Source: Rhizobium sp. SG_E_25_P2 (GTDB lineage: Bacteria > Pseudomonadota > Alphaproteobacteria > Rhizobiales > Rhizobiaceae). Taken from it: 64,000 nt of DNA. The DNA lies in the NCBI RefSeq assembly GCF_029892285.1, contig NZ_JARXVM010000012.1, forward strand, positions 124,001-188,000, given 5' to 3'. The notes beneath the pieces are model-generated. The model had not been told where the DNA came from, made no database searches, and saw only the letters and a program-made list of their open reading frames with translations. Both the position numbers and the translations under genes were made by a program. Of the stretch, positions 3,062 to 7,532 are shown one piece after another; the first letter of the stretch is position 1; every line of letters begins with the position of its first letter.

Positions 3062-4537
3062 TTATTCGCCCGCGTCTTCGGCGGCAGCCTTTTTCTTCGG
3101 AGCCGCCTTCTTCTTCGGAGCGGACTCTTCGCCAGCCTCGTCTTCGGCCTTCGCGGCCTTCTTTTTCGGCTTCTCGGCCTTGTCTTCGGACGAAGCCTCG
3201 TCCTCGTCTTCCGCCATCAGTTCTTCTTTGGTGACGGTCTTATCGGTCACCGAGATCTGCGTCAGCAGGTGATCCACGACCTTTTCTTCGAAGATCGGCG
3301 CGCGCAGGCCGGCGATAGCGCCAGGGGTCTCGCGGAAATACTTGATGATTTCCTTTTCCTGGCCCGGGAACTGCTGCATCTGGGCGTAGAGCGCCTTGTT
3401 GAGCTCGTCTTCAGAGACTTCAACGCCAGCCTTCTCACCGATTTCGGAGAGGACCAGGCCGAGCTTGACGCGACGTTCAGCGAGCTTGCGATATTCTTCG
3501 CGCGCCTTTTCTTCCGTCGTGTCTTCATCCTCGAAGGTCTTGCCGGACTGGGCGAGGTCAGAGGCGATCTGGCGCCAGATCTGCTCGAACTCGGCGTCGA
3601 CGAGGCGCGACGGGGTATCGAAAGCGTAAAGAGTGTCCATCTGGTCGAGCAGCTGACGCTTCAACTTCTGGCGGGTCACCGTGCCGAACTGGCTTTCCAG
3701 CTGGCCGCGGACGATTTCCTTGAGGCGATCGACAGATTCAATCCCGAGCTTGGAGGCGAGTTCGTCGTTGATTTCGACTGCTTCAGCGCCGGCGACAGCC
3801 TTCACCTTGATGTCGAAAGTCGCTTCCTTGCCGGCCAGATTGGCGGCGGGATATTCGGCCGGGAAGTTGACGGTGATCACCTTCTCGTCGCCAGCCTTGG
3901 CGCCGACCAGTTGCTCTTCGAAGCCGGGGATGAAACGGTTGGAGCCGAGCACCAGTTCAGCGCCTTCGTCCTTGCCGCCGTCGAAGGGCACGCCATCGAG
4001 CTTGCCTTCGTAATCCATGGTCACGCGGTCGCCGTTTTCAGCCGCGCCGTCCTTGTCGGCATAGCTGCGGGCGCTCTCGGCGATGCGGAGGATCTGCTCT
4101 TCGACTTCGCTCTCGGGGATCTCGACGACTTCGCGGGTCACGGAGATAGAGCTCATGTCCTTGAGTTCGATCGGCGGAATCACTTCATAAGAGAGAGTGA
4201 ATTCGAAATCGGCCTCGGCGGCGAGAATCTTGTCGGCTTCCGACTGGTCCTCGGTCATGGCGATTTCCGGCTGGGTGGCGGACTTTTCGCCGCGGCCGGT
4301 GAGGATTTCGGTCGGACGGTCGCGAATGATCTCGTTGACCAGTTCGGCCATCACGGACTTGCCGTACATCTTCTTCATGTGGGCGAAGGGCACCTTGCCG
4401 GGACGAAAGCCGTTGATACGGACGCGGCCCTTCACTTCCTCAAGCCGCTCGTTCATCCGAGCTTCCATGTCCTTGGCCGGAATGACGACCTTGAGTTCGC
4501 GCTTCAGCCCATCCGCGAGCGTTTCGATAACCTGCAT
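3062..4537 (-). CDS. tig: Trigger factor, ribosome-associated chaperone
   Basis: Trigger factor binds the ribosomal exit tunnel and shields nascent chains; it also has peptidyl-prolyl isomerase activity. The 491-residue product has the ribosome-docking signature GFRPGK at residues 43-48, then an FKBP-like isomerase domain (about 165-245, with [14 protein letters not shown]) and a helical C-terminal chaperone domain. It is longer than the usual 430-450 residues because of a tail of about 45 residues made of Lys, Ala and Glu ([17 protein letters not shown]). Such charged tails are common in alphaproteobacterial trigger factors. The gene is monocistronic here, with its own terminator. clpP, its common neighbour, is not adjacent. 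Confidence 0.97.
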
Positions 4538-4753: not shown

Positions 4754-4837
4754 TGGTGCGGGTGGAGGGACTCGAACCCCCACGCTTTTGGCGCGAGAAC
4801 CTAAATCTCGTGCGTCTACCAGTTCCGCCACACCCGC
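4754..4837 (-). tRNA. tRNA-Leu (anticodon UAG)
   Basis: Reading the minus strand, GCGGGTGTGGCGGAACTGG opens a cloverleaf with a 7-bp acceptor stem. The anticodon arm is CGAGA-TTTAGGT-TCTCG, giving anticodon UAG for CUA/CUN codons. A long class II variable arm (CGCGCCAAAAGCG), the T arm GGGGGTTCGAGTCCCTCC and an encoded CCA follow. Total length is 84 nt with CCA. Confidence 0.97.
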
Positions 4838-4928
4838 ATCAGCGAAACCGCTTCAAGCCGTTTCGTCGCCGCGTCCTTAGCACCGTCGAAACGGCAAGGG
4901 AAGAAAAACATCGCGTGCTGCCGTCGCT

Positions 4929-4961
4929 TTTACACAATGTAAATACCAGCTTACTATAGTA
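4929..4961. promoter_or_regulatory. Two short palindromes, possible promoter/operator
   Basis: TTTACA-CAA-TGTAAA is a perfect inverted repeat (4929-4943), followed by the 10-bp palindrome TACTATAGTA (4952-4961). Read forward, TTTACA and TACTAT are 17 nt apart and resemble a sigma70-type -35/-10 pair pointing towards the downstream sRNA. Because the block is symmetrical it could equally serve the tRNA gene on the other strand. This is inference only. Confidence 0.35.
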
Positions 4962-5083
4962 GGCCATGTCGGGAGCCAATTCCCAGCTATGCACTCGGCG
5001 CATGGGGCCATTGAGTTTTTTGCGCTGCAAAAAGAAAATTTATCATACTATTGTCCTTCTCAACGACAGGGCGGACCTGACGA

Positions 5084-5261
5084 GACGGCAGTTGCGAACC
5101 GTCGGCGATCTGATCGCTTTAGCTCTCCCGAAAGGGTGATGGAATTCGGGGTCGCGATCTCCTCCTCCCACGCGCCCCGATGTGACTGATGGCACTCCTC
5201 CTCCCAGCCGTCGGTCAGACTCAACGACGCCCACCGGACCTCCTCCCCCGGTGGGCGTTTT
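5084..5261 (+). ncRNA. Cuckoo-type sRNA with three CUCCUCC-loop hairpins
   Basis: Three consecutive hairpins each expose an anti-Shine-Dalgarno loop. Hairpin 1 (5146-5180) has stem TCGGGG/CGCG and a loop holding CTCCTCCTCCC. Hairpin 2 (5184-5216) has a 10-bp stem, two pairs being G-U, and a loop holding CTCCTCCTCCC. Hairpin 3 (5227-5258) has an 11-bp stem, loop ACCTCCTCCC and a following T-tract, so it is also the terminator. Smaller hairpins (5084-5103, 5105-5117) lie upstream, and the 5' end is a guess. CUCCUCCC loops plus a terminator define the cuckoo RNA class of alphaproteobacteria, which includes CcsR of Rhodobacter. Two DUF1127 genes lie downstream; in Rhodobacter, CcsR RNAs are associated with a DUF1127 RNA-binding protein. 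Targets here are unknown. Confidence 0.75.
5227..5261 (+). terminator. Rho-independent terminator of the sRNA
   Basis: Stem ACGCCCACCGG / CCGGTGGGCGT of 11 bp encloses a C/U loop (ACCTCCTCCC) and is followed by TTT. The loop repeats the anti-Shine-Dalgarno motif of the two upstream hairpins. Confidence 0.85.
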
Positions 5262-5684
5262 GATTCCGGCAACGCCTGCGTTTCACGCCTTTTCCATATC
5301 ACGTGGCTGCGCCAGCAGGACGATCGCGCTTTTCAATGCGCGACTGCGGCGACCGGGCGATCTTCATGCAACGCCGAAAAAAATCACTGGCGGAGCCGAG
5401 ACAAAGCTCGGAATGACCATAGTTTCCCCGCATTTTGCGAGGACCGCGCCACATTCAGCCGCACCGCCTAAAAAACAGGCCGATTGGCCATACAAATGCC
5501 CTCCTCGCGTCAATCTGATTAATAAAAGTTAAATTATGTGAGCCACTTAGGTTAATGAGATGCGATTCTTGCATAGGTGCACTGCTGCAATGGCGCTGGT
5601 TTCGTGTGCGCTGCAATATTATATTCCGGTCATGAAATTCGGAGCGGCGAAACAGATCGCTCCAGACCGAAAAGGAACCGCATC
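5262..5684. other. Region between sRNA and first DUF1127 gene
   Basis: About 420 bases without a credible gene. Short open frames here have no family resemblance. The last 170 bases include an AT-rich patch (TTAATAAAAGTTAAATTATG) that probably carries the promoter of the following small gene. An isolated CCCTCCTC occurs near 5500 but has no flanking stem. Confidence 0.5.
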
Positions 5685-5828
5685 ATGAACATCGCACGCG
5701 CTTACAACAACTGGGTCAAGTATCGTCAGACCGTCACCGAACTCGGCCGCATGACCAATCGCGAACTCAGCGATCTCGGCATTGCTCGCGAAGACATCCG
5801 CAAGGTTGCTCGCCAGGCCGTTCTCTAA
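5685..5828 (+). CDS. DUF1127 small basic protein, first copy
   Basis: The product is 47 residues, basic and Arg-rich (MNIARAYNNWVKYRQTVTEL at the start). It has the DUF1127 core: a W-x-x-Y-R-x-T helix, L-x-x-M-x-N-R-E-L-x-D-L-G-I and a downstream R-x-D/E-I. The chosen ATG has AAAGGAA 8 nt upstream; the frame stays open further 5', but that part is not family-like. A strong terminator follows, so it is a single-gene unit. DUF1127 proteins of alphaproteobacteria affect stress and phosphate/carbon responses and RNA turnover; a Rhodobacter member binds RNA and is linked to CcsR sRNAs. The role here is inferred from that precedent and from the neighbouring cuckoo-type sRNA. Confidence 0.9.
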   Translation: MNIARAYNNWVKYRQTVTELGRMTNRELSDLGIAREDIRKVARQAVL

Positions 5829-5850
5829 GCTTTCAAGCACTGCATCCACG

Positions 5851-5878
5851 AAAGCCGCCGGAGCGATCCGGCGGCTTT
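5851..5878 (+). terminator. Rho-independent terminator after first DUF1127 gene
   Basis: A perfect 11-bp stem AAAGCCGCCGG / CCGGCGGCTTT with a 6-nt loop, 22 nt after the stop codon. Confidence 0.85.
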
Positions 5879-6017
5879 CGTGCGTTTTGGAGTCTCGCAT
5901 TGCAGGCCTTCGTTGACGCTCCGACATCCAACGAATTTGCCTCTGAGCCCGCCAATGCGGGCAGCCCCGGTTTTCGGCCGTTAACCACTGGCGAAACTTT
6001 GCGCCTCGCCTTCTTAT

Positions 6018-6053
6018 TGTGCATCGCATGCTTATTTGCATAGCAGCTGCACA
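6018..6053. repeat. Imperfect inverted repeat upstream of second DUF1127 gene
   Basis: TGTGCA...ATGC...GCAT...TGCACA forms a broken palindrome about 105 nt upstream of the second DUF1127 start codon, inside a 330-base stretch that is otherwise without a gene. It could be an operator or an untranslated-leader hairpin; the sequence alone does not decide. Confidence 0.3.
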
Positions 6054-6158
6054 CAAATCGCACTCCACCTTATTATTATTCGCGTGTATAAAGAGATCAT
6101 AAGTTTTCGAGCCGGGCAGAAAGCCAGGCCGCTTCAGAAGTCTAAAGAGGAAACGTCC

Positions 6159-6302
6159 ATGAACCCGCTTCGCATCGCCATCAATTGGGTCAACTATCGC
6201 CGCACGATCTCCGAACTGTCCAACCTGTCCAACGACACGCTGCAGGACATCGGCGTCAACCGCTACCAGATCCGCAACATTGCGGCTCGCTCCTTCCGCT
6301 AA
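6159..6302 (+). CDS. DUF1127 small basic protein, second copy
   Basis: Again 47 residues (MNPLRIAINWVNYRRTISEL at the start), and alignable without gaps to the first copy: N-W-V-x-Y-R, T-x-x-E-L, N-x-L-x-D-I/L-G and a C-terminal basic helix. The start follows AAAGAGG by 8 nt. It has its own terminator and about 330 bases of upstream DNA, so it is separately expressed from the first copy. Identical length with roughly half the residues shared suggests an older duplication with separate regulation. A possible RNA-related stress role is inferred as for its partner. Confidence 0.9.
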   Translation: MNPLRIAINWVNYRRTISELSNLSNDTLQDIGVNRYQIRNIAARSFR

Positions 6303-6333
6303 GCGGCGAAAGAGCTACCATACATATCGTGTC

Positions 6334-6357
6334 AACGGCGCCCATTCGGGCGCCGTT
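6334..6357 (+). terminator. Rho-independent terminator after second DUF1127 gene
   Basis: Stem AACGGCGCCC / GGGCGCCGTT with loop ATTC, followed by a short T-rich tail (TTTGCATTT). Confidence 0.8.
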
Positions 6358-6382
6358 TGCATTTGTAGCGCTTGCCGGAGCA

Positions 6383-6412
6383 AACGGGCGGCGACTTACG
6401 CCGCCGCCCGTT
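6383..6412 (-). terminator. Terminator of the ene-reductase gene
   Basis: Stem AACGGGCGGCG / CGCCGCCCGTT of 11 bp lies immediately after the minus-strand stop codon. The T-tail on that strand is short. Confidence 0.65.
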
Positions 6413-6416
6413 GCAT

Positions 6417-7532
6417 TCACACCAGTTCGCCGAGCGCCGCCGGGCTGAACTCCTTGAGCGCATCCAATTCGCCCTTTTGCACCTTCGCAACCCATTGCGA
6501 GTCGTTGAGCAGGGCGCGGCCCACCGCAATCAGGTCGAACTCGTCGCGCTCCATGCGCTCGATGAGATTGTCGAGACTTGCGGGCTTGGACGATTCACCG
6601 CCGAAGGCCGCGATGAATTCGCCGCTCAGGCCGACGGAACCGACGCTGATCGTGGCGGCGCCTGTGAGCTTCTTGGCCCAGCCAGCGAAGTTCAGGCCCT
6701 TTTCGCCATCGATTTCCGGGAATTCCGGCTCCCAGAAGCGGCGCTGCGAGGCGTGGATCACGTCAACGCCAGCATCGACCAGCGGCTGCAGCCAGCTCGC
6801 CATTTCGTCCGGCGTCGTCGCCAGACGGACCGAGAAATCCTGCTGCTTCCACTGGCTGACGCGGAACAGGATCGGATAGTCAGGGCCGACGGCGGCGCGG
6901 ACGGCTTTGGTGACTTCCACCGCGAAGCGGCTGCGGTCGGCGATGGTCGGGCCACCCCAGGCGTCCTGGCGTTCATTCGTGCCAGCCCAGAAGAACTCGT
7001 CGATCAGATAGCCATGCGCGCCATGAATTTCGAAGGTGTCGAAGCCAAGCCGCTTCGCATCGGCGGCGGCCTGGGCGAAAGCGGCGATGGTGTCGGCGAT
7101 ATCGGCGTCGGTCATCGCCTTGCCGCGCGGCTTGCCCGGAGCGAGCAGACCCGAGGGGCTTTCGATGCCTTCAGGATTGTAGTCCTTGTCGGCGATGGTG
7201 CTGCCGGTATGCCAGATCTGCGGGCCCATGCGACCGCCGGCGGCATGCACGGCGTCGATGACGTTTTTCCAGCCGGCGAGCGCGGCCTCGCCATGAAAAT
7301 CCGGAATGTTGGGATGGTTCTTGGAGGCGCTGCGCGCCACCACCGTGCCTTCCGACAGGATCAGTCCGACATCGGCTTCGGCCCGACGGCGATAATAATC
7401 GGCGACGTTCTGGCCGGGCACGCCTTCGGGCGAGAAGGTGCGCGTCATCGGCGCCATCACGATTCGGTTCTTCAGCGTCAGGCCCTTGATCGTCAGCGGG
7501 CGAAACAGCGTGTCTGCGGTTTTCGTGGTCAT
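6417..7532 (-). CDS. Old yellow enzyme family NADH:flavin oxidoreductase
   Basis: A 371-residue FMN-dependent TIM-barrel protein of the old yellow enzyme family, which reduces activated alkenes, nitro compounds or related electrophiles with NAD(P)H. The N-terminal KNRIVMAPMTR (21-31) is the FMN-binding start of the barrel. H170 and H173 in IHGAHGYLIDEFFW form the substrate-binding pair. AAAGAGG precedes the ATG. It is divergent from an HxlR-type regulator across about 110 bases that hold a palindrome. This arrangement is typical of ene-reductases induced by electrophile or redox stress. The substrate cannot be read from the sequence. No iron-sulfur or NAD-binding extension is present, so it is not a 2,4-dienoyl-CoA reductase type. 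Confidence 0.9.
   Translation of the reverse strand: MTTKTADTLFRPLTIKGLTLKNRIVMAPMTRTFSPEGVPGQNVADYYRRRAEADVGLILSEGTVVARSASKNHPNIPDFHGEAALAGWKNVIDAVHAAGGRMGPQIWHTGSTIADKDYNPEGIESPSGLLAPGKPRGKAMTDADIADTIAAFAQAAADAKRLGFDTFEIHGAHGYLIDEFFWAGTNERQDAWGGPTIADRSRFAVEVTKAVRAAVGPDYPILFRVSQWKQQDFSVRLATTPDEMASWLQPLVDAGVDVIHASQRRFWEPEFPEIDGEKGLNFAGWAKKLTGAATISVGSVGLSGEFIAAFGGESSKPASLDNLIERMERDEFDLIAVGRALLNDSQWVAKVQKGELDALKEFSPAALGELV

Follow-up and report, generated by a model that had tools for sequence, protein, structure and literature searches.

A conserved ar14 (NfeR1-type) small RNA beside two short DUF1127 genes in Rhizobium, each preceded by a candidate LsrB-type box

The locus described here lies in a 64,000-nucleotide stretch of the Rhizobium sp. 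SG_E_25_P2 genome (the window), where minus-strand genes for trigger factor (3062-4537) and tRNA-Leu (4754-4837) are followed, on the plus strand, by a small RNA (sRNA) core at 5141..5263 and by two genes of the DUF1127 family. DUF1127 gene 1 (5685..5828; PF06568, E = 4e-15) and gene 2 (6159..6302; PF06568, E = 2e-11) each encode 47 aa, as an earlier note on this DNA had read them, and both products have the length (~47-48 aa) and the domain of short DUF1127 proteins. GC-rich inverted repeats, possible terminators, lie 3' of both genes on the plus strand, at 5850..5879 with a poor T run and at 6335..6358 with a weak one; a terminator scan of both strands of 4900-6420, set to require five or more T per 8 bases, returned neither of these nor any other, the sRNA's own included. 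The earlier proposal that each gene has its own terminator therefore keeps its inverted repeats but is plausible only. By eye, four of nine genus members (L132, L133, L134 and L135) have a tiny CCTCCCAA-loop hairpin in the interval that separates DUF1127 gene 1 from its inverted repeat. The hairpin is absent from this position in the window; it resembles the remnant of an ar14 RNA formerly located 3' of the gene. Elsewhere in the window, an open frame of 456 aa (1597-2967) contains a HETGHALGLKHP stretch resembling that of zinc metalloproteases, together with glycine-aspartate repeats, and by eye its predicted product looks like a serralysin-type secreted protease.

The sRNA core folds into three hairpins (5146-5180, 5183-5217 and 5226-5259) with CTCCTCC in the loop of each, the last being terminator-like; the predicted fold has an energy of -60.6 kcal/mol (z = -5.5), which none of 200 shuffles equalled, and the three CUCCUCC loops that the earlier note had drawn are real. 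CTCCTCC matches nine times on the two strands of the 64-kb window, five of them within 5159-5246, and because 9.04 matches are expected across the whole window it is this cluster, not the count, that is notable. A covariance-model search matched 5141-5263 to Rfam RF02344 (ar14) at full length (model positions 1-123) with 103.8 bits, above the curated cut-off of 58.8 (E = 4.5e-18), and the family hallmark is present: an unpaired CCUCCUCCC-type anti-Shine-Dalgarno (anti-SD) motif in every one of three hairpins. The RNA is a clear member of ar14, the family founded by the Sinorhizobium sRNA NfeR1, which makes the earlier description as a cuckoo-type RNA right and more exact; CcsR1 (RF02791) was tried and rejected, its model giving 22.2 bits where the curated cut-off requires 65.3.

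Three anti-SD loops had been called unusual, which is mistaken: ar14 members are described as having three hairpins with an identical anti-SD motif in each (PMC10746234), and in S. meliloti, with six copies, the three motifs are reported to be used redundantly (PMC7143759). NfeR1 itself is described as an Hfq-independent RNA with its own promoter, 123 nt long in one account (PMC10746234) and 115 nt in another (PMC8844928). We rejected the idea that the sRNA regulates its neighbouring DUF1127 genes: ranked by loop-duplex energy among 40 starts, the other 38 belonging to window open frames of 200 codons or more that were picked mechanically, the two DUF1127 starts came 17th and 29th.

Synteny of tRNA-Leu, ar14 and two DUF1127 genes, with the order unchanged, is kept in all eight congeners. 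The hairpin region is conserved in 8/8 congeners at a mean column identity of 84 percent, against 52 percent for the upstream DNA, the reverse of the pattern (hairpins lost amid conserved surroundings) that had been named as counter-evidence. A wider scan with the trigger factor protein, one genome per species, gave 161 relatives, of which we used the best 80, with an ar14 search model built from 12 sequences. ar14 was present at 38 of these best 80 loci, in 38 of the 42 of a presumed related group and in none of the remaining 38, seven of the 38 positive loci coming from genomes that had gone into the model. All 38 ar14-positive loci among the best 80 of 161 have DUF1127; in 37 the sRNA comes first, and 35 of those 37 have two DUF1127 genes.

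The single exception, Oricola (L076), has the order box-DUF1127-ar14, twice, and three further genomes, all of one genus in the family of this Rhizobium and outside those 80, have the opposite order, a DUF1127-DUF1127-ar14 array, 2.4-3.2 kb from trigger factor; gene order thus varies even at one chromosomal site. Two other loci, L154 (genome G146) and L159 (G007), hold arrays of three alternating DUF1127-ar14 pairs, in which the G007 ar14 copies and one of those of G146 score below the Rfam cut-off; the arrays suggest that the pair was duplicated as a unit. The trigger factor match in G146 (G146:C1:633808-635154) contains one in-frame TGA.

Across a sample of 150 genomes of the order, ar14 was matched at E <= 0.001 in 46 and above the cut-off in 22, and DUF1127 was found in 130; the genome studied here has five ar14 copies and six DUF1127 genes. 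We compared the surroundings of all 55 over-cut-off ar14 copies, window included, loci whose relatedness means that these counts, like those for the box below, are not independent trials. A DUF1127 gene lies within 1 kb of 36 of the 55, on the same strand in all 36, and 22 of the 55 stand directly past a DUF1127 stop codon (-40 to 60 nt); by our own arithmetic, which takes some five DUF1127 genes per ~5 Mb, ~0.2 percent of copies would be linked by chance. At least one linked copy occurs in 18 of the 22 genomes, whereas 19 of the 55 copies have no DUF1127 gene within 1 kb, and two of the five copies in this genome are linked.

Upstream of the sRNA core we found a plus-strand TGCA-N6-GCAT sequence at 4990..5003, a predicted box for the LysR-type regulator LsrB. 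Its form is that of the NfeR1 box described in S. meliloti, which LsrB is reported to bind at about -72 to -57, ahead of the core promoter, activating NfeR1 and being needed for its expression (PMC10746234). The box is exact in five of nine genus members, the window among the five, and has one mismatch in the other four; 42 nt past it lies a predicted -10 element, TACTAT (5046..5051, plus strand), similar in the congener alignment. DUF1127 gene 1 has a predicted LsrB box at 5561..5574 (plus strand), exact in six of nine genus members and with one mismatch in the window and two others, followed, again 42 nt on, by a -10-like TATTAT at 5617. For gene 2 the LsrB-like box is one base shorter (TGCT-N5-GCAT, 6029..6041, plus strand), a form found in all nine genus members, none of which has the exact one; its -10-like element may be TATAAA, 45 nt further along at 6087, or else the TATTAT of 6071-6076. 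A sigma-70 scan listed none of the three proposed -10 elements, preferring TATTAT 6071-6076 for gene 2, and gave an earlier promoter-like pair (4929-4957) before the sRNA.

The window alone holds 72 matches to the box at up to one mismatch against 71.6 expected, and we rejected significance by count; such a box is no rarer there than chance would make it, and the case for it rests on position and conservation. At 39 related trigger-factor loci (window included), 22 of 51 ar14 copies (0.42 expected from background; the other 29 have none) and 25 of 76 DUF1127 genes (0.68 expected from background) have the strict box TGCA-N6-GCAT in the gap before them, at clustered distances. Order-level loci have a strict box before 16 of 46 DUF1127 genes (0.78 expected) and directly upstream of 6 of 69 ar14 copies (0.57 expected), many of the ar14 copies there closely following DUF1127.

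The genome also appears to encode LsrB (VtlR) beside an abcR gene: on contig C7, abcR adjoins a LysR-type gene, before which a disulphide-reductase-like frame resembles the vtlR neighbourhood as described in PMC12595884. An exact box 57 nt upstream of this abcR serves as an internal positive control, AbcR1 (ar15) with LsrB (VtlR) having the same box type and differing in RNA family. Within 300 nt, a box also accompanies two further DUF1127 genes (exact on C28, one mismatch on C4) and two further ar14 copies (exact for C11, one mismatch for C4b); none was found within that distance of ar14 C2 and C4a (two of five copies), DUF1127 C1 and C6 (two of six) or one of the two abcR genes. Those two abcR (ar15) genes (L189 and L190) lie on different contigs, one by the LysR-type gene and one by a large frame, helicase-like by eye; in S. 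meliloti the abcR genes have been described as tandem. The ar14 copies on C4 (L001 and L004) have an extra CATCCTCCTCCC motif within ~25 nt upstream of position 1501, just before the Rfam model, which suggests a fourth anti-SD hairpin.

If transcription starts 57 nt past the box, as in NfeR1, the sRNA would begin near 5060, ~80 nt upstream of the Rfam model; the start at 5084 given by the earlier note may thus be late. The predicted leader (5060..5140, plus strand) lies outside the model, and folding places small hairpins there in several congeners; their stems, judged by eye, vary in sequence yet remain paired. A strict three-hairpin pattern, defined only after relatives had been inspected, fits 10 of 26 leaders, where 60 shuffles of each predict 0.1. 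The window's own leader is outside those ten, and taken alone its fold is no more stable than that of shuffled sequence (z = 0.08); across 25 dereplicated leaders the mean fold z is -1.06. An alignment fold of the nine genus members gave only two of the three leader hairpins, with eight pairs; in three of these pairs both partners have changed, and the covariation term is -0.23. Seven of 23 box-to-core distances are 57-59 nt, leaving no room for an ~80-nt leader in those ar14 copies. We regard the leader structure as a lead, and a weakly supported one, rather than a result.

An open frame at 4966-5139 overlaps this leader and ends a single base short of the core, much as the stop codons of DUF1127 genes lie close to the core in relatives; it could be read as a decayed DUF1127 gene whose remodelled remnant is the leader. 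The frame begins upstream of the predicted start site, and DNA similarity covers most of it in two congeners only and 54 nt of it in a third; with similarity confined to near congeners, we rejected this origin as extremely improbable.

The locus resembles several known systems. Like NfeR1 (Smr14C2) of Sinorhizobium meliloti, it has three hairpins, an anti-SD motif in every loop, a terminator-like last hairpin and, as a candidate, an LsrB-type box upstream; unlike NfeR1, at 123 or 115 nt, it would carry an ~80-nt 5' leader. The DUF1127 neighbourhood noted earlier is real and already has a name: alphaproteobacterial CcsR-like RNAs are often associated with short DUF1127 genes, as the CIN1 locus of the cuckoo RNA family (PMC10253847, citing Reinkensmeier and Giegerich 2015), and the present pairing of short DUF1127 genes with a cuckoo-type RNA agrees with that definition as the citing paper gives it. 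CcsR1-4 and CcaF1 of Rhodobacter sphaeroides likewise combine anti-SD hairpin RNAs with an adjoining DUF1127 gene, but are described as one operon, protein first, with sRNAs processed by RNase E, whereas here the sRNA precedes both genes and has a predicted promoter to itself, and, judged from gene order, the ccaF1-CcsR operon type is absent. The difference from Rhodobacter in order, pointed out earlier, is correct for this locus and for the 37 trigger-factor loci of like order, while the ar14 copies directly past a DUF1127 stop codon elsewhere are ordered otherwise. The two proteins match the short DUF1127 proteins (SDPs) of Agrobacterium tumefaciens, single-domain DUF1127 proteins of 47-48 aa (PMC12501420).

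Taken together, we consider it likely that the locus encodes an LsrB-activated, trans-acting silencing sRNA of NfeR1 type beside co-regulated short DUF1127 genes. The sRNA and the two proteins would probably come from separate transcripts, and the redox regulator LsrB (VtlR), of LysR type, would bind a TGCA-N6-GCAT-type box before each unit and activate the sRNA and both DUF1127 genes together. Kraus et al., in 2020, reportedly found that LsrB controls DUF1127 genes in Agrobacterium. Brucella VtlR is described as activating abcR2 and three DUF1127 genes (PMC12595884). The three interchangeable anti-SD loops would cover the Shine-Dalgarno sequences of many mRNAs and block their translation. In S. 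meliloti the targets are transporter mRNAs and ntrBC, NfeR1 silencing ntrBC and NtrC repressing NfeR1 (PMC10746234), and here the sRNA may silence nutrient-uptake mRNAs. The short DUF1127 proteins would act in parallel on nutrient signalling, with no contact with the sRNA needed; those of Agrobacterium are reported to act through PhoR, with contacts described (PMC12501420).

An alternative, raised in the earlier note, is a self-contained module in which the DUF1127 proteins bind the ar14 RNA and direct how it matures or is turned over, as reported for Rhodobacter CcaF1 with CcsR RNAs (PMC10253847). This precedent, the tight same-strand linkage of ar14 with DUF1127, often right after the stop codon, and the box common to both argue for it; against it stand the unlinked ar14 copies and NfeR1, a transcript from its own promoter for which processing from a DUF1127 mRNA would not be needed. 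RNA binding, reported for CcaF1, was according to PMC12501420 not found for Salmonella YjiS, and the same paper assigns the Agrobacterium proteins to PhoR, yet its finding that CcaF1 complements the Agrobacterium short-DUF1127 defect means that PhoR and RNA roles may coexist. Contact between DUF1127 proteins and the sRNA is disputed, and we judge such a module unlikely, though the DUF1127 proteins may have a CcaF1-like role in RNA processing.

Descent alone could also account for the arrangement, if an ancestral DUF1127-ar14 operon split in Rhizobiaceae and its parts, still adjacent and under one regulator, do not interact functionally. The box-DUF1127-ar14 order of Oricola, which recurs in several order-level genomes (a partly chosen set), fits such a split, as do the CCTCCCAA-loop hairpin past DUF1127 gene 1 and a weak R1 match at that position in L050 (E = 0.0039). 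Adjacency nevertheless persists at the trigger-factor site though spacers diverge and DUF1127-ar14 pairs are repeated in G146 and G007, suggesting that the pair is under selection; the change would have run from operon to split, and we hold descent alone to be rather unlikely. A further version would make ar14 and the short DUF1127 genes one LsrB-driven unit, derived from a box-DUF1127-ar14 operon that split in Rhizobiaceae with each piece keeping its box, and with a roughly three-hairpin leader, TGGCGA-like in its first loop, gained or kept as a possible DUF1127/RNase E platform. As the alignment fold supports only part of the leader structure, this version seems to us decidedly improbable.

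An LsrB-activated silencing sRNA beside co-regulated DUF1127 genes, the reading that we prefer, draws on elements already in print: the triple anti-SD structure and the DUF1127 neighbourhood are both known from earlier work (PMC10746234, PMC10253847). In the open-access literature we found no paper containing both DUF1127 and NfeR1, and the box common to all three units, together with the two gene orders at one site, may be new; what this work adds is the comparative synthesis of ar14-DUF1127 linkage, order and box. Control of NfeR1 by LsrB in Sinorhizobium and of DUF1127 genes by VtlR in Brucella have been published separately (PMC10746234, PMC12595884), and this locus hints that one regulator may govern the sRNA and both DUF1127 genes.
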